Source: an uncultured Burkholderiales bacterium
GTDB lineage: Bacteria > Pseudomonadota > Gammaproteobacteria > Burkholderiales > Burkholderiaceae_C
NCBI GenBank assembly: GCA_903933115.1
Contig: CAIZIT010000063.1
Span: forward strand, 62,001-126,000
Length of the DNA: 64,000 nucleotides
Direction: 5' to 3'
Shown: positions 39,057 to 64,000 of the stretch, piece after piece
Numbering within the stretch: the first letter of the stretch is position 1
Layout of the letters: each line of letters starts with the position of its first letter
Program-made: the position numbers and the translations under genes
Notes under the pieces: generated by a model
Told to the model about the DNA's origin: nothing
Seen by the model: the letters and a program-made list of their open reading frames with translations, nothing else
Database searches by the model: none

Positions 39057-40283
39057 TTGAATCATCAATTTTTCATTCTCCTTTTGACCCAATTCATTGT
39101 CGGGATTTGTGACAATGCATTGATCTTGGTCGTCATCGCTCTCTTGCAAGAGCAGTCATACCCCCCTTGGTGGATACCCATCCTTAAAGCGGTCTTTACC
39201 GTTTCGTTTGTACTTTTTGCACCTTTTGTCGGGCACACCTCGGACATCCGTCCTAAGAGGCGGGTGATGATGGGTGCGACCCTCCTTAAATGGGGCGCCT
39301 GTGTCTTATTGCTTTTTGGCCTCCACCCTTTTTTGTGTCTATTGCTTGCTGGAATCGGGGCTTGCATCTATTCTCCAGCCAAGTATGGGCTGGCCACTGA
39401 GATGGTGGAGTTGGGGCATTTGGTCAAAGCCAATGCTTGGCTGGAGGTCAGCACAGTGCTCGCGTCAATTTTTGGGTTTCTTTTAGGTGGACTTTTGGTT
39501 AGCGAAGCTTTTAGGCAAAGTACCTGGGCCGAGGGACTCAGCAAGTTGCTTCAAGAGTCTGGCAGTTTGAACCTGTCCATTTTGATCTTAATTGGGTTGC
39601 TGACATTGGCGAGCGTTTTGACGCGATTTTTACCCGTTAGTGGTTTCATCAAAACCCAGCGTGTGGATCACCTGATTGAGCATTTGAGAGAGTTTGTGCG
39701 CAGTTTAGGGCAGTTGTGGCTTGATCCCATGGGCAGAGTGTCACTTTGTGTGACCACTTTGTTTTGGGGGGTGGGTTCAACAATGCAATTGCTGGTTTTG
39801 GTCTGGGCTCAGGAGCAACTTGGGTTTACCTTGTCACAATCTTCGTATTTTCAAGTCACTGGTGCCGTGGGTATGGTCTTGGGTGCGGTCCTTGCGGCTT
39901 CTTTCATCAAAGTCAAAGATGCCATCAAGTTGACAAAATTGGGTTTTATCATCGGATTGATGATGGTGGTGATGGGTTGGGTTCAAGAGCCTTGGGGTGC
40001 CTCAGCGTTGATGGTTGGAATTGGGATGGTATGTGCTTTGTTGATTGTTCCCTTTAACGCACTTCTTCAGCACAGGGGCAAAGAGATTTTATTTCCTGGT
40101 CAATCCATAGCGGTACAGAACTTTTGTGAAAACTTGAGTGTCTTGCTGATGGCACTGGGCTACAGCGCTTTGTTGGCTTATGGTGTGTCCTTGAATTTCT
40201 TGATGGTTCTCTTTGGCCTATTGATTATCGTGGTGATCTATTTCATCATGAACTTGAGTCGATCACATCAGACCTCACTTTGA
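39057..40283 (+). CDS. lplT: Lysophospholipid transporter LplT (MFS)
   Basis: 408 residues with about 12 membrane helices. The N-terminus FFILLLTQFIVGICDNALIL and the segment YSPAKYGLATEMVELGHLVKANAWLE are characteristic of LplT, which flips lysophospholipids across the inner membrane for re-acylation. A TTG start at 39057 is used because no ATG lies nearby; the ribosome-binding site is weak. The usual partner acyltransferase gene (aas) is not adjacent; instead a GT4 glycosyltransferase follows after 34 bases. A Pho-box-like promoter lies upstream. Confidence 0.88.
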   Translation: MNHQFFILLLTQFIVGICDNALILVVIALLQEQSYPPWWIPILKAVFTVSFVLFAPFVGHTSDIRPKRRVMMGATLLKWGACVLLLFGLHPFLCLLLAGIGACIYSPAKYGLATEMVELGHLVKANAWLEVSTVLASIFGFLLGGLLVSEAFRQSTWAEGLSKLLQESGSLNLSILILIGLLTLASVLTRFLPVSGFIKTQRVDHLIEHLREFVRSLGQLWLDPMGRVSLCVTTLFWGVGSTMQLLVLVWAQEQLGFTLSQSSYFQVTGAVGMVLGAVLAASFIKVKDAIKLTKLGFIIGLMMVVMGWVQEPWGASALMVGIGMVCALLIVPFNALLQHRGKEILFPGQSIAVQNFCENLSVLLMALGYSALLAYGVSLNFLMVLFGLLIIVVIYFIMNLSRSHQTSL

Positions 40284-40317: not shown

Positions 40318-41337
40318 ATGGGAATGAAAATGAAAATTTTGATCGTGACAGATGCTTGGGAGCCACAAATCAATGGCGTTGTCAGAACCTTAAAGATGAC
40401 TCAAAGAGAGCTTGCGAAGTTGGGTCATGAGGTGGTCTTTCTTACACCCTTGGACTTCAAGTCCATTCCTTGCCCCACTTATCCAGAGATCTCTCTGGCT
40501 CTTGCGAGCACCAAAACTGTCAAGACCTTGATCGAGTCGATCAAGCCCGATTGCTTGCACATCGCAACCGAGGGTCCTCTGGGATGGAGCGCCAGGCGTA
40601 TTGCAATACAAAAGGGATGGAAATTCACTTCCGCCTACCATAGTCGTTTTCCAGAATATGTGAATGCCAGGTTCAAGATCCCCACCTCTTGGACCTACGC
40701 TCTTTTGCGAAAATTTCACAATAAAGCCCAGTTCAACTTGACGCCAACCCCAGCCATAGTTGAGGATTTGAGGGCCAGGGGATTTCACAATCCAAGGCTT
40801 TGGACCAGAGGTGTCGATAAAGATATCTTCACCCCCATAGGTCCGAAACAATACCCTGAGCGGTCTGATCACCCCGTTTTCTTGCATGTGGGCCGTTTGG
40901 CTGTAGAAAAAAATGTGGATGATTTTCTAAAGCTGGATTTACCAGGCGAGAAATGGGTCGCAGGAGATGGGCCAGAGCGGGCAAGATTGGAGAAAACCTA
41001 CAAGGATGTTCGCTGGTTTGGTGTTCTCGATGGATTGTCTTTGGCCACTTTGTACCGAAGCGCAGATGTGTTTGTCTTTCCAAGTGTCACCGATACCTTT
41101 GGACTGGTGATGCTCGAGTCCATGTCCTGTGGGACACCCGTAGCGGCTTATCCCGTTCCTGGACCTATCGATGTTGTTCAAAATCAGGTCTCAGGAGCGC
41201 TGAACAAGGACTTGCGTCAAGCTTGCTTAGAGGCTCTGAAAATGAGTCGAACCGATGTGTATCAACACGCCTTGAATTTCACATGGGAGAAAGCGAGCCA
41301 ACAGTTCTTGAGCTCATTGCAGCAAATCAGTCATTGA
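40318..41337 (+). CDS. GT4 family glycosyltransferase
   Basis: 339 residues, GT-B fold. The N-terminal domain opens KMKILIVTDAWEPQINGVVRTL. The C-terminal nucleotide-sugar domain has FLHVGRLAVEKNVDDFL, VAGDGPERARLE, FGVLDGLSLATLYRSADVFVFPS and TDTFGLVMLESMSCGTPVAAYPVPGP with the conserved Glu pair. This is the pattern of lipid mannosyl/glucosyl transferases acting at the inner membrane. Cotranscribed with lplT; ugd, which would supply UDP-glucuronate, is next and convergent. A role in making glycolipids under phosphate limitation is inference. ATG codons at 40318, 40324 and 40330 are all possible starts. Confidence 0.87.
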   Translation: MGMKMKILIVTDAWEPQINGVVRTLKMTQRELAKLGHEVVFLTPLDFKSIPCPTYPEISLALASTKTVKTLIESIKPDCLHIATEGPLGWSARRIAIQKGWKFTSAYHSRFPEYVNARFKIPTSWTYALLRKFHNKAQFNLTPTPAIVEDLRARGFHNPRLWTRGVDKDIFTPIGPKQYPERSDHPVFLHVGRLAVEKNVDDFLKLDLPGEKWVAGDGPERARLEKTYKDVRWFGVLDGLSLATLYRSADVFVFPSVTDTFGLVMLESMSCGTPVAAYPVPGPIDVVQNQVSGALNKDLRQACLEALKMSRTDVYQHALNFTWEKASQQFLSSLQQISH

Positions 41338-59731: not shown

Positions 59732-61048
59732 TTAAAACAGCAAGAGACCAATCATCGCCGCTGACAAACAAGTGGACAATGTGCCAATCAGCAATGACTT
59801 TGCGCCCATTTGCACGATCTCCCTTTGTCTTTCAGGTGCCATGGAGCCCATTCCAGCGATGACAATGCCAAGACTGCCAAAGTTGGCAAACCCACAAAGC
59901 AAATAGGTCAATAAAACCCTCGAGTGTTCACTGATCGCGTCGGTGCTCAGTTTAGAGAGGTCCAAATAAGCGATGAATTCGTTCAGCACCAATTTCTCTC
60001 CCATCAATTGACCCGCCACTGCTGTGTCTCTCCACTCAATGCCGAGTGTCCAAGAAAAAGGTTGCATGATCCAGCCAATGATGCGCTGTATCGTGAGGGC
60101 TGAGCCATTCATATCGGGCAAGAGTTGAAGAATGCTGTTCCCTAAGGAAACCAAGGCGACCAAAACGATCAGCATCGCGATCACACTGGCCAAGAGTTTC
60201 ATGCCTTGGAAGGTGCCGTCGCTGATGGCATCCATGGTGCTTTGGTACTTTTTATGGGCGTCCGTGGTGTGGAGAAGAGCTTTGATGTAACTCTTGAGGC
60301 CATGGCCTTGAAGATCAGCATCATCGAGCTTGGAGGGTGGAGTTTCAAAAAGCACTTCTTTAGGAACCGCCACCAAGCTTAAAACGATCGCTCCAGGTGC
60401 ACTGATCAAGGAGGCGATGATCAGGTGAGTCACCACATGAGGTACAGCGTTTTGAAGAAAGCTTGCATAAATCACCAATACGGTACCAGAGATGGTAGAC
60501 ATGCCTGTGCTCATCACCACAAAGAGCTCTGCCTTGGACAATCCGGACAAGTAGGGCCTGATGAGCAAAGGCGCCTCTACTATTCCCACAAAGACAGTAG
60601 CAATGCTGGCAAAAGACGTGGCCCCAGTCACGTTCAGGACTTTTCCAAGAAGCCATGCAAATGCCCCGATGACCAGCGGCAAGACACGCCAGTAGTAGAG
60701 AAGGGAAGAAAGTGCGCTGAAGATCAAAATCATCGGCAAAGCTTGTAATCCAAGAATAAAGGACATGCCAGGGGTTTTTTCCTCAAAGGGCAAGGGTCCA
60801 CCCCCTAGGTAGCCAAAGACCAAGGACGTTCCGGCTTGAGTGGCTTTTTGAAGTTGGAGCACACTCTCATTCAAAGAGCCTAAAAAACTTTGAATGAAAG
60901 GCACTTTCAGTAAAATCAAAGCCAAAAGAAATTGGAACAACAAACCCTTGAGAAGATTTTTGTAATCGATGTTGGAACGATTGTCGCTAACAGCGATCGA
61001 GATCAACAAAATGATCACAATTCCAATGAGAGATTGATAATGATTCAT
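59732..61048 (-). CDS. CNT (NupC) family concentrative nucleoside transporter
   Basis: 438 residues from ATG 61048 (MNHYQSLIGIVIILLISIAV); a TTG at 61099 is in frame but less likely. About 10-12 membrane helices. Characteristic segments are FVGIVEAPLLIRPYLSGLSKAELFVVMSTGM and, in the second half, NEFIAYLDL and LTYLLCGFANFGSLGIVIAGMG. It imports nucleosides with H+ or Na+. It is the third gene of a leftward operon after the BtaA-like and GNAT-like genes, starting 47 bases after the latter's stop. Nucleoside transport beside a SAM-consuming transferase suggests handling of methylthioadenosine, which is inference. Confidence 0.88.
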   Translation of the reverse strand: MNHYQSLIGIVIILLISIAVSDNRSNIDYKNLLKGLLFQFLLALILLKVPFIQSFLGSLNESVLQLQKATQAGTSLVFGYLGGGPLPFEEKTPGMSFILGLQALPMILIFSALSSLLYYWRVLPLVIGAFAWLLGKVLNVTGATSFASIATVFVGIVEAPLLIRPYLSGLSKAELFVVMSTGMSTISGTVLVIYASFLQNAVPHVVTHLIIASLISAPGAIVLSLVAVPKEVLFETPPSKLDDADLQGHGLKSYIKALLHTTDAHKKYQSTMDAISDGTFQGMKLLASVIAMLIVLVALVSLGNSILQLLPDMNGSALTIQRIIGWIMQPFSWTLGIEWRDTAVAGQLMGEKLVLNEFIAYLDLSKLSTDAISEHSRVLLTYLLCGFANFGSLGIVIAGMGSMAPERQREIVQMGAKSLLIGTLSTCLSAAMIGLLLF

Positions 61049-61095
61049 GCCTAATGCCTTGAGCAAAACAAATGGAACCCGACGGGTCAAAACAC

Positions 61096-62136
61096 TCAAG
61101 CACCTCTTTGGATCAAATCTTGTTCGCTCAAGTGCTTGGTCCTTTTTGAAACCCAGTGCATCAATCGAGCTTTCCAGTTCAAAAAGGAGGAAGGTGTTTT
61201 GACCGCAGTATACTCAAGTCGACCCACTGCTCCTCGTTTACGTTTAAAGTCTCCAGCGCCTGAGCTGTAATTGAGCATCAGTTGATGCTCCAAGGTGTAG
61301 TTGAAAATGGCGGCAAATAAGAGTCTATAAATGCCTGGTCCGGACTCGCTTTCAATGTAGCCCAGAGCTGGGACCGTCAAGGTGTCGTCTATTTGGTGCA
61401 GAAGTGCAAATGCGACCGTCTCACCTTGTTCGTTTTTTAGGCACAATGAGGACATGTAAGCCGAATTGATCATGTCCCTGAAAAAAGTCGGCGTGTAGTT
61501 GGCGTTGAACACGCTGTGCTTTTGGATGTAAATCAAATCGTAGAGGTGTTGAAGCCACGTGGCCTCTTTTTCATCAACGACAGTGACGAGTTCGACCAAC
61601 AATTGCGATTTTTTAAGTGCGCCGATGTCCCGCATCAAATGAGAGGGCTTGCTCTTCATGCCCTGTCTTAAATCGAATTCATAAATCACACGAGCAGGTA
61701 AGAGCGCAAAGCCCAAGCTGATCAATTCTTCGATCAGTTGAGCGTGTTGATGAATCAATAAGTTGCGCACAAAAACAAAGCGCTGGCTTTGACTTTGCGC
61801 TTCCAAGCGGCATTTGTCTAGTATCTTCTTGTTTTCCTCAACAGGCCAAACATTGGTAGAGACAGGAAAGTTGCCAACGATGATGTTGCTGTTCAAACCC
61901 ATCAAATTTGCAAAATGCGAGAGCAGTTGGAGACCTTTTTTTAGTAAAAAGTGTCCTTTGACTTCCTCTGCGGCGTAATCGAACCAAGCTATTTTTGGGG
62001 AAGTGATGTAGCAGTTGGCTTTTGGCCCTTCCTCCTTTGTGATGGTGAGGGGCAGAGCGCTTTGTTCATAATGGAGCTCAGCGCCTGCATTCACCATCCA
62101 CTCTTGGAGGGAATGGCCCCACTGGGGCTCATTCAT
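61096..62136 (-). CDS. GNAT/FemAB-like acyltransferase coupled to the BtaA-like gene
   Basis: 346 residues from ATG 62136. This start overlaps the BtaA-like stop codon by one base (TGATG), so translation is coupled; longer frames read through the previous gene and are rejected. The C-terminal part (FRDMINSAYMSSLCLKNEQGETVAFALLHQ, then YIESESGPGIYRLLFAAIF and the basic GAGDFKRKRGAVGRLEYTAV) looks like the acetyl/acyl-transferase domain of BcsL/FemAB-type GNAT proteins. The N-terminal half is unclear. By context it may act on the lipid headgroup or chain made by the BtaA-like enzyme. Exact reaction unknown. Confidence 0.78.
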   Translation of the reverse strand: MNEPQWGHSLQEWMVNAGAELHYEQSALPLTITKEEGPKANCYITSPKIAWFDYAAEEVKGHFLLKKGLQLLSHFANLMGLNSNIIVGNFPVSTNVWPVEENKKILDKCRLEAQSQSQRFVFVRNLLIHQHAQLIEELISLGFALLPARVIYEFDLRQGMKSKPSHLMRDIGALKKSQLLVELVTVVDEKEATWLQHLYDLIYIQKHSVFNANYTPTFFRDMINSAYMSSLCLKNEQGETVAFALLHQIDDTLTVPALGYIESESGPGIYRLLFAAIFNYTLEHQLMLNYSSGAGDFKRKRGAVGRLEYTAVKTPSSFLNWKARLMHWVSKRTKHLSEQDLIQRGA

Positions 62137-63377
62137 CAAGGATTCAATCGATAAAGGTGAAGGGCACCGTAGATGCCTGATCGATCCAGAGGTCCAAGGC
62201 TGTCGCTGACTTGTGCGTCTCTTGTCCAACGATTGGCCAACGTGCCTGTGAGACACGCATCCACTGGGGATTGAGTGCCAGCCGTCCTGAAAATGACCCT
62301 GGCACCTGGTTTTGCCGCCACGGTGATGGCGTTCCACACAGCGGTCAATTCTTGAGGGGTCATCCAGTCTTGGGCATCCAACAAGTTCACGATATCGACC
62401 GATTGTGGGCCCAATTGAACCAGTTTTTCTCGAATGTTATTGTGCTCAATCGAAATCTTATGAACGCTGTCTCTTAAGAAGGCATAGTTTTCTTTGGCCA
62501 AATAGGGTGGAAGAGCACTTTGGCCCGTTTCATCGTATTTTCGTGCATAGGCTTGCCAAGCAAAGTAATTGTCCTTAATAGGAACAACCGTTGCCAGTTG
62601 ACGGGCACGTTGCTTTAAGATTTCAGACATTTGCTCGGGTTTGTTGTCACACAAAGCGAGGTGCTGGCTTGGAGGGATGCCAAGGTTGTAAAGCGCATAA
62701 GGACTGCTGCAAATTTTAGTCACCAATCTTGAGTCAAAGATCTTCGCAACTTTTTGATCAAACCAATTTTTTTGGTCTTCAACGGTCTTTTGTTCTAGCA
62801 ATTCAGACAACTTCACGCCATGGAGTTTTGCTCCCACATGAATGATGCCGATGATTTGCCCCAATAGCCCGTATTTGTAAAATCCCTTGGCGAACATTTG
62901 AATTCTCTTGGACCCCAAAGGACCGCTTTCCCAATATTGCCTGCTCTCGGCGTCCAAGACTGGTGCAATAATGGCGTTATAGATCCGAACATTGCTGGTT
63001 GATTTTGCGATGCCGAAAAATCTAAAGAAGTCCTCGTGGTACTCAAGCGTTTTGATGGCTGCAATTTTCAAGTTGTTCAAAGCAATATGCGCATGATTGA
63101 GATCAACCACTGAAATTTTGGCAGGATTGGCCATGAGGTAAGACAAAGCGTTGCATCCACCGGAAGCAATGGTCAGCATGTGGTCTGTATCCTTGATGGA
63201 CAGTGCTTTCATGTCAACAATCGGATCTTCCCAAATTTGGGTATAGACCAATCGATCAAACCACATGGCAAATATTTTGTCCTTGAGCGTTGCTTTAGAT
63301 TTGTGACCAAAGACTGCGTTGTCGAGAAGCACCTTTGATTTCTTCAAGCTTAGCGTTGGATTTTGAGTTGCATTCAT
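62136..63377 (-). CDS. btaA: BtaA-like (DUF3419) SAM:diacylglycerol 3-amino-3-carboxypropyltransferase
   Basis: 413 residues from ATG 63377 (MNATQNPTLSLK), with AAGGA 12 bases upstream; a further ATG at 63437 would lie before the likely transcription start. The signature RLVYTQIWEDPIVDMKALSI, LTIASGGCNALSYLM and VVDLNHAHIALNNLKIAAIK is that of BtaA, and VNLLDAQDWMTPQELTAVWNAI with GARVIFRTAG the second conserved block. BtaA moves the aminocarboxypropyl group of SAM to diacylglycerol, giving diacylglyceryl-homoserine and methylthioadenosine, the first step of phosphorus-free betaine lipids. The usual methyltransferase BtaB is absent; a GNAT-like and a nucleoside transporter gene follow. Confidence 0.85.
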   Translation of the reverse strand: MNATQNPTLSLKKSKVLLDNAVFGHKSKATLKDKIFAMWFDRLVYTQIWEDPIVDMKALSIKDTDHMLTIASGGCNALSYLMANPAKISVVDLNHAHIALNNLKIAAIKTLEYHEDFFRFFGIAKSTSNVRIYNAIIAPVLDAESRQYWESGPLGSKRIQMFAKGFYKYGLLGQIIGIIHVGAKLHGVKLSELLEQKTVEDQKNWFDQKVAKIFDSRLVTKICSSPYALYNLGIPPSQHLALCDNKPEQMSEILKQRARQLATVVPIKDNYFAWQAYARKYDETGQSALPPYLAKENYAFLRDSVHKISIEHNNIREKLVQLGPQSVDIVNLLDAQDWMTPQELTAVWNAITVAAKPGARVIFRTAGTQSPVDACLTGTLANRWTRDAQVSDSLGPLDRSGIYGALHLYRLNP

Positions 63378-63452
63378 GTTAGAAATAAATCCTTGTTGAT
63401 GTAAAGATGTGTCAATTGTGAACTTTGAATATTTCATTTGAATGTTGCTTTT

Positions 63453-63470
63453 GTGACTTCTTGGTGACGT
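63453..63470 (-). promoter_or_regulatory. Pho-box-like repeat upstream of the BtaA-like operon
   Basis: On the minus strand ACGTCAC-CAAG-AAGTCAC has two perfect GTCAC cores 11 bases apart, about 10 of 14 Pho-box positions. A -10-like TCAAAT (63441-63436) follows after 11 bases. Transcription would begin near 63428, which favours the ATG at 63377 as start of the BtaA-like gene. Confidence 0.4.
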
Positions 63471-63613: not shown

Positions 63614-64000
63614 ATGTCAAATTACTTTTCAGCTCCAACTCGCCGATTGCTTTTGTCGCTCTTGGCTTTTGTTGCACTATCAGGTTGTGCAATCAATACC
63701 TTTTTGGTCGATCAAGTTGCCAAGTCGGTTGTGACCGAGGATGCGCAGGAGGAAGACTTGTTGCTGGCGCGCGATGCGAGTCCGTTTTATCTGAAATTGA
63801 CAGAAAATTTATTGTTGAGTTCTCCTGCAAATTTGAAGTTGGCTGAGTCGGTTTCTGCAGGTTTCACACAATACGCCTATGCCTTTATTGCCTTTGAGGC
63901 CGATAAGTTAGAGGCTCGCGATTACAAGGGTGCAGAAATTTTGAGGGAGCGTGCCTCCAAGATGTACGCACGTGCTTACCGACATGCCATGAAAACATGG
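63614..64000 (+). CDS. TatT-like (TRAP transporter T-component family) lipoprotein, 5' part
   Basis: 129 codons run to the window edge. The start MSNYFSAPTRRLLLSLLAFV leads to the lipobox ALSGC at about residues 21-25, so it is a lipoprotein. The pattern DLLLARDASPFYLKLTENLLL, then AGFTQYAYAFIAFEADKLE and ILRERASKMYARAYRHAM with helical repeats is typical of TatT proteins associated with TRAP transporters. In that system it is thought to be a periplasmic trimer near the substrate-binding protein. The rest, and any TRAP genes, are beyond the window. Confidence 0.8.
   Translation, partial: MSNYFSAPTRRLLLSLLAFVALSGCAINTFLVDQVAKSVVTEDAQEEDLLLARDASPFYLKLTENLLLSSPANLKLAESVSAGFTQYAYAFIAFEADKLEARDYKGAEILRERASKMYARAYRHAMKTW

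Follow-up and report, generated by a model that had tools for sequence, protein, structure and literature searches.

The window analysed here is a stretch of 64,000 nucleotides from an uncultured Burkholderiales bacterium (NCBI GenBank assembly GCA_903933115.1, contig CAIZIT010000063.1, positions 62,001 to 126,000), at the end of which three genes on the minus strand encode a BtaA protein (DUF3419), a GNAT-like protein and a CNT-type nucleoside transporter. The first two form a conserved pair, and there is little doubt that they act in one pathway. BtaA is usually taken as a marker of the betaine lipid diacylglyceryltrimethylhomoserine (DGTS) in genome and metagenome surveys; the product of the pathway considered here is probably a phosphorus-free lipid that differs from it.

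The btaA gene (62136–63377) encodes a protein of 413 amino acids that matches PF11899 with 332.5 bits, against a curated cut-off of 28.2, over profile positions 7–384 of 385 and hence at full length; it is the only DUF3419 gene detected in the 2.8 Mb genome. By homology, its product is a putative S-adenosylmethionine (SAM):diacylglycerol 3-amino-3-carboxypropyltransferase. Like the BtaA of BtaA–BtaB (DGTS) systems, it retains 47 of the 48 columns with an invariance of 95% or more across 29 BtaB-linked BtaA proteins (the start methionine is one of these), which bears out the BtaA signatures noted in the initial annotation. Of these invariant columns, GNAT-linked BtaAs keep a mean share of 0.946 (28 proteobacterial proteins) and 0.956 (39 verrucomicrobial proteins). 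A sequence search found no DUF3419 relative among solved structures (best E value 0.42).

The second gene (61096–62136, minus strand) encodes 346 amino acids with a match to PF13480 below the cut-off (19.6 of 22 bits) and is predicted from a structural model to be a double-GNAT transferase with the fold of FemX and the MprF catalytic domain. Its ATG overlaps the TGA of btaA as TGATG, just as had been read initially. The reference in the GNAT alignment begins at the TTG at 62139, and residue numbers below are therefore one higher than if counted from the ATG at 62136. This gene after btaA, together with the lack of a detected BtaB in the genome, sets the locus apart from BtaA–BtaB systems.

Conservation of the pair and exchange with BtaB

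A scan of named genomes with two peptide patterns from the GNAT alignment, biased to close family members, found DUF3419 beside the GNAT homologue at 71 of 72 loci, the exception (L156) lying at a contig end. In 70 of the 71 pairs both genes share a strand, and the distance between them ranges from −4 to 134 bases. Carriers belong to the Burkholderiales, Thiomicrorhabdus, Zooshikella and the Verrucomicrobiota, many of them apparently lake or fresh-water bacteria; Limnohabitans sp. B9-3 (L106), of the window's genus, has the GNAT, Polynucleobacter bastaniensis and Thiomicrorhabdus arctica DSM 13458 are further carriers, and in Zooshikella (L168) it is paired with a very divergent DUF3419 protein of unsure position in the tree. 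The unit in which a GNAT-like enzyme replaces BtaB as the partner of BtaA, proposed in the initial annotation from the window, is thus conserved, and the database search suggested there, for DUF3419 genes adjoining this family and not BtaB, reveals a pair found from Burkholderiales to Verrucomicrobiota. The doubt raised at the same time, that homologues of the GNAT might mostly occur without DUF3419, was not borne out at these loci.

In a sample of 25 genomes from the genus, many of them incomplete metagenome-assembled genomes (MAGs), DUF3419 was found in seven and the GNAT in six, always beside DUF3419; the five other genus GNATs share 44–65% identity with that of the window. Across 250 genomes of the family, DUF3419 and the GNAT were each matched in six: the two lie side by side in the window genome, G180, G264 and G210 (GNAT identities of 25–34% for these last), only DUF3419 was matched in G194 and G244, and only the GNAT in G076 and G044. 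When the GNAT profile was run on 339 class genomes six matched, the three best of which have the GNAT beside DUF3419 (the window's own genome, G480 and G347, the last cut by a contig end). GNAT relatives from whole-genome searches with no DUF3419 match in the genome are G076 and, more weakly, G044 and the other three of the class set, G316, G585 and G587. A GNAT relative at L037:9376–10401 stands in a different gene neighbourhood, which includes a probable ketosynthase III, with no DUF3419 match in its genome sample entry.

A profile of 13 BtaB sequences, run on 22 chosen genomes, scored 254–297 bits in six BtaA–BtaB genomes; the remaining 16, made up of ten GNAT genomes, G010 and five genomes without a DUF3419 match, gave no more than 63 bits, and none of the ten GNAT genomes had a match at BtaB level. 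In the window genome (99.31% complete) no BtaB was found either beside the pair or elsewhere, the best profile match of 57.7 bits being of the same level as the 42–63 bits of five genus members without a DUF3419 match; a btaB at another site, which the initial annotation had named as evidence that would speak against its proposal, did not come to light.

In a class sample of 369 genomes, the 21 DUF3419 loci above 300 bits consist of three with the GNAT (the window's own, G480 and G347) and 18 with BtaB; the 13 such loci in 288 genomes of the verrucomicrobial phylum consist of three with the GNAT (G655, G944 and G769) and ten with BtaB. Pooled, 34 strong BtaA loci divide into six with the GNAT and 28 with BtaB, and none has both partners. 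The window's own genome and G655 entered as sampling centres, without which the numbers are four and 28 among 32. The distant, lower-scoring DUF3419 loci that were inspected have neither partner. The GNAT, then, usually stands in for BtaB, and coexistence of the two is possible.

The BtaA tree, built from 118 proteins, contains two PARTNERSHIPS: the GNAT family accompanies BtaAs of two separate lineages. The GNAT-linked BtaAs of Proteobacteria group with the BtaB-linked L083, L084, L085 and L087, and verrucomicrobial ones with another BtaB-linked set; median identities to the respective BtaB-linked sets are 40% and 42%, compared with 27% between the two GNAT-linked groups. A single clade of GNAT-linked BtaAs was rejected, since forcing 48 rows together costs 225.6 log-likelihood units (p-AU 7e-93). 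This test used 91 of the 118 rows, with the long branches L168, L096, L034, L035 and L094 dropped and the verrucomicrobial rows thinned; the constrained rows are GNAT-linked proteins, three of them also with BtaB, plus L030, which was included after the first tree had been viewed. The best account of one GNAT family accompanying distinct BtaA lineages is a substrate common to them, namely what BtaA makes, and it is probable that the GNAT acts on this product. Several MAGs (L109, L157, L121 and others) carry what seem to be loose labels, their record titles naming Rhizobium, Klebsiella pneumoniae or Akkermansia muciniphila; their BtaAs group with Burkholderiales or with a broad verrucomicrobial set.

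Predicted fold and proposed reaction

An AlphaFold2 model of the GNAT-like protein, built on 55 family members (mean pLDDT 93.2), predicts a double-GNAT fold in the arrangement of FemX and MprF. The best Foldseek hits in the PDB are lysyl-/alanyl-phosphatidylglycerol synthase domains of MprF (4v36, E value 1.1e-10), with FemX (4ii9) at 8.6e-9. Sbb17, MprF-type and FemX structures fill the top 21 of the 50 rows in the VIA list (Z 15.8 to 13.8 over 230–266 residues), with a root-mean-square deviation (r.m.s.d.) of 3.2–4.0 in the Sbb17 and MprF-type rows and 4.3–4.5 in the FemX rows. The next row is VipF, of the coenzyme A (CoA) type, with a Z of 13.6 and an r.m.s.d. of 6.8, and N-myristoyltransferase is found at a Z of 11.9 and an r.m.s.d. 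of 5.6. The modelled fold best matches aminoacyl-tRNA-dependent transferases, namely the MprF catalytic domain, FemX and Sbb17.

The P-loop consensus of CoA-dependent GNATs as given in PMC4964394 (Q/R-x-x-G-x-G/A) occurs at the β4–α3 loop in none of the 55 family members, and its lack would lower the likelihood of CoA use. Residues N290, S292–G296, F298, K299, R302, G303 and E309 are invariant in all 55. A review (PMC12945691) gives Lys305 of FemX and Lys329 of DhpH-C as catalytic, the latter with a contribution from Phe328, and the invariant F298–K299 dyad may be the equivalent. The family is mostly basic, with a median isoelectric point of 9.43 and 53 of the 55 members above 8; that of the window protein is 7.77.

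The conserved pairing, the failure to find BtaB, the retained BtaA residues, the predicted fold and the missing P-loop consensus are computed results; the substrate, donor, product and regulation, and every step after BtaA, we infer. Enzymes of the BtaA family convert diacylglycerol to diacylglycerol-O-homoserine and methylthioadenosine (PMC6302742). The free amine of this lipid would be the obvious acceptor for a transferase. In the window's bacterium, diacylglycerol would come from ordinary turnover and from PlcP, whose gene lies on the contig outside the window. BtaA would then move the 3-amino-3-carboxypropyl group of SAM onto diacylglycerol, yielding diacylglyceryl-homoserine (DGH) and methylthioadenosine, and the double-GNAT enzyme would modify the free α-amine of DGH in place of the trimethylation by BtaB. 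The most likely donor would be aminoacyl-tRNA, as in MprF and FemX, and the product an aminoacyl-homoserine lipid; in genomes that have BtaB as well, one DGH pool could feed two lipids. Aminoacylation appears a better guess than plain acylation because the CoA P-loop consensus is missing and the predicted fold is nearest to aminoacyl-tRNA-dependent transferases, acyl-ACP (acyl carrier protein) or acyl-CoA being the main rival donor, and aminoacyl-tRNA is by a narrow measure the favoured donor. That the pair as a whole is a phosphate-starvation membrane-lipid unit, in which the DGH made by BtaA is given an amino acid by the GNAT, is an even call. In the initial annotation it had been suggested that the GNAT could modify the amine of DGH, for example by acylation; a probable product of the unit that is free of phosphorus and is not DGTS agrees with this, whereas for the reaction itself aminoacylation fits better on the grounds of P-loop and fold.

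Known systems offer partial parallels. The MprF catalytic domain (lysyl-/alanyl-phosphatidylglycerol synthase, DUF2156) shares the double-GNAT arrangement (7duw, Z 15.7, 3.5 Å over 243 residues) and, on the model-based proposal made here, a lipid substrate; it differs in that the 346 residues of the window protein are filled by the double GNAT, leaving no space for an N-terminal flippase domain, in the low identity of the MprF-type VIA rows (12–15%), in PF09924, which is unmatched in the window protein, and in the BtaA neighbour. Sbb17 (Z 15.8) and FemX of the FemABX group (6snr, Z 14.9) resemble the predicted fold, with no match at the sequence level and in a peptidoglycan or antibiotic context as against the lipid context here. 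HfsK of Caulobacter is likewise a tandem-GNAT relative of FemX, its reaction unknown according to PMC5362036, and is set apart by its description, which places it in a polysaccharide holdfast context under c-di-GMP control.

Several observations weigh against the aminoacylation of DGH by a GNAT that replaces BtaB. The Z of 13.6 for VipF is within 1 of the FemX rows, a tie by the rule of the tool that leaves r.m.s.d. alone to separate them, and single-domain CoA GNATs fit half of the model with a Z of about 11–12; function is in any case not deducible from fold similarity. A sequence search against solved families found no FemX or MprF relative, a lone dehydrogenase match (E value 0.15) being attributable to chance, and PF09924 matches only weakly, in three of the 55 members (best E value 0.085), the window protein not among them. 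Atypical P-loops occur in some true CoA GNATs described in PMC4964394. On the genomic side, among 30 genomes of named GNAT loci BtaB at E values up to 1e-20 was found in four and not in the other 26; in three of the four it lies inside the locus, so that replacement is not strict, and these three had entered the set with their locus BtaB known beforehand. Finally, G010 has a BtaA with neither partner adjoining, and no GNAT match was found in this genome, an 89% complete MAG.

The foremost alternative is N-acylation of DGH by the GNAT, with acyl-ACP or acyl-CoA as the donor of a fatty acyl (or acetyl) group; the product would be an N-acyl-homoserine lipid that has three chains or is anionic. 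The GNAT fold itself and matches to PF13480, annotated as an acetyltransferase, in 28 of the 55 members are what such an enzyme might show, and the amino acids of other aminolipids without phosphorus are described as N-acylated by OlsB-type GNATs (PMC11631085). OlsB-type enzymes (of ornithine, glutamine and glycine lipids) thus form an amide in a phosphorus-free amino-acid lipid, as is proposed here; they acylate the amino acid first, with the ester-linked chain added later, and carry PF13444 (PMC11631085). This family, common to known aminolipid N-acyltransferases, is not among the 17 families matched at E values up to 1 and is found in none of the 55 members, the P-loop consensus is equally wanting, and the CoA-type double GNATs fit the model with a clearly worse r.m.s.d. 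Use of acyl-ACP would be compatible with the missing P-loop. On balance N-acylation seems unlikely, at perhaps half the weight given to the main reading.

Rather improbable is a GNAT that acts on methylthioadenosine or a protein, with no lipid substrate, the end product being either unmodified DGH or DGTS from an unrecognized methyltransferase. The unaccompanied BtaA of G010 fits this, as do weak BtaB-profile matches to generic methyltransferases in all 22 genomes searched; the alternation of GNAT and BtaB as the partner of BtaA argues against it, and the methyltransferases of the window's own genome have scores at the level seen where btaA is lacking. Marginally less probable still is a GNAT aminoacylating diacylglycerol or another lipid in parallel to BtaA, like LysX or AlaDAGS, with only a substrate pool and regulation in common, a reading that the existence of diacylglycerol-aminoacylating MprF homologues (PMC10580965) and the four of 30 genomes with both GNAT and BtaB would suit, and that is opposed by the single GNAT among 72 named loci without an adjoining DUF3419, at a contig end, and by the separate joining of the GNAT to two BtaA lineages, which points to a BtaA-specific substrate.

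The aminoacylation of DGH, put in its fullest form, can be offered only tentatively: Burkholderiales and Verrucomicrobiota, many of them apparently from fresh water, may make an aminoacyl-homoserine glycerolipid by means of BtaA and a free-standing FemX/MprF-like enzyme that uses aminoacyl-tRNA, probably under phosphate stress, this enzyme having joined betaine-lipid pathways at least twice. Previous work already covers BtaA itself, PlcP, Agt and the tRNA-dependent aminoacylation of lipids. No paper on the pair or on an aminoacylated homoserine lipid was found in the open-access literature of PubMed Central, a search that did not cover subscription papers. Were the proposal true, some BtaA-bearing bacteria would make a phosphorus-free lipid different from DGTS, a counterpart of lysyl- or alanyl-phosphatidylglycerol without the phosphorus; lake lipidomes may contain an unassigned lipid class for which the genes can now be named, and the fields of betaine lipids and tRNA-dependent lipid aminoacylation would be linked. 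The prediction is testable in named isolates and in Escherichia coli.

Probable phosphate-starvation context

A role in phosphate-starvation lipid remodelling is likely because plcP and agt lie next to part of the pairs and Pho-box-like repeats stand in part of the btaA promoters. Some loci share plcP and agt-like neighbours, and some proteobacterial loci the repeats, with BtaA–BtaB systems. Clusters of plcP with agt or btaAB are described as known phosphate-starvation clusters in marine bacteria (PMC4796936). Within the stretches fetched, a PlcP homologue is present in 33 of 81 GNAT records and six of 29 BtaB records, counts in which some genomes occur twice and stretch lengths differ; BtaA, GNAT and PlcP are consecutive in L110, L123 and L124. 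PlcP was found in 28 of the 32 genomes searched, with G017 (no DUF3419 match) among the misses, and the window genome has its PlcP on the same contig, outside the window (73% identity). The reference used for these searches matches calcineurin-like phosphoesterases and also resembles PlcP, from which its name is taken.

Upstream of the window's btaA, about 90 bases from its start, lies a Pho-box-like direct repeat (ACGTCACCAAGAAGTCAC, GTCA-N7-GTCA; 63453–63470, minus strand). After dereplication, the repeat is found upstream of 12 of 28 proteobacterial GNAT loci and eight of 19 BtaB loci, the rest of each locus giving expectations of 0.017 and 0.011 per 300 bases, respectively; this comparison replaced a looser PHO-box score with shuffles. 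The matches are in forward orientation at all eight BtaB loci and at only six of the 12 GNAT loci (the window, L101–L104 and L116), of which L101–L104 are one clade and so not all independent. The window has an additional match, on the reverse strand, which shares bases with the start codon of the divergently oriented gene at 63614; the reverse matches in the window, L097 and L098 may be coincidence, and the forward repeat of the window stands. The repeat was found at none of three loci with both partners and at none of the loci with neither (0 of 11 proteobacterial and 0 of eight verrucomicrobial). A general phosphate role is not favoured by its absence from the Verrucomicrobiota (0 of 40 GNAT loci and 0 of ten BtaB loci), nor by the GNAT genomes G658, G659 and G677, in which no PlcP was found at E values up to 1e-20.

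Two genes on the plus strand also concern lipids. That at 40318–41337, about 21 kb from btaA, encodes an Agt-like glycosyltransferase (E value 6e-92 to the Agt-like protein of L030; PF13439, PF13692 and PF00534 above cut-off) with a possible part in the synthesis of a phosphorus-free glycolipid; the name Agt is putative, being based on PlcP adjacency in relatives and on resemblance, without a characterized reference. Directly before it, at 39057–40283, lies a gene for the lysophospholipid transporter LplT (NF008397, 391 bits against a cut-off of 297). A loss of phosphatidylethanolamine synthesis was considered and discarded, as phosphatidylserine decarboxylase is present in all 22 genomes searched, the window's own included.

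Neighbouring genes and distant DUF3419 loci

The third gene of the minus-strand group (59732 to about 61048) encodes a CNT (NupC/NupG-like) nucleoside transporter, with PF07662, PF01773 and PF07670 above cut-off and the NCBIfam nupC model below it (318 of 442 bits). It adjoins the pair in six of 81 GNAT locus records (stretches of differing length, some genomes being present twice), which come from five different genomes, those of the window and of L097–L100, its nearest relatives. The transporter that the initial annotation saw in the place of BtaB does follow the pair in the window; with its restriction to five closely related genomes it was rejected as a member of the system, for example in methylthioadenosine recycling, and is a lineage-specific neighbour outside the conserved unit. 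Within these five genomes it might serve the recycling of nucleosides from the methylthioadenosine released by BtaA. On the other side of btaA, the divergent gene at 63614–64000 shares its intergenic region; in L025 the corresponding gene encodes a TRAP transporter T-component (PF16811), and the genes downstream of it presumably form the remainder of a TRAP transporter.

In another genus member (L030:8394–11048), BtaA lies between homologues of phosphatidylserine decarboxylase and diacylglycerol kinase, with neither GNAT nor BtaB. The arrangement psd–btaA–dgkA, seen in G010 and L030, was dismissed as a general theme, a second psd being present also in genus members without a DUF3419 match (G006, G015, G120 and G224).

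Fourteen distant DUF3419 proteins keep on average 0.460 of the invariant BtaA columns. In L090:3515–7274 and L091:3126–6925 the distant DUF3419 gene directly follows one for a phosphoenolpyruvate-synthase-like or PigC-like protein, a call made from a scan of L090, the start of the L091 gene being similar. Short distant DUF3419 proteins (318–324 amino acids) in L095:5672–8165 and L096:4224–6801 stand beside a haem-oxygenase-like iron enzyme (PF14518, CADD/BesC-like), with family assignments taken from scans of L095. These two loci also hold a small GNAT of another family (PF13527) and constitute a second, unrelated DUF3419–GNAT neighbourhood.

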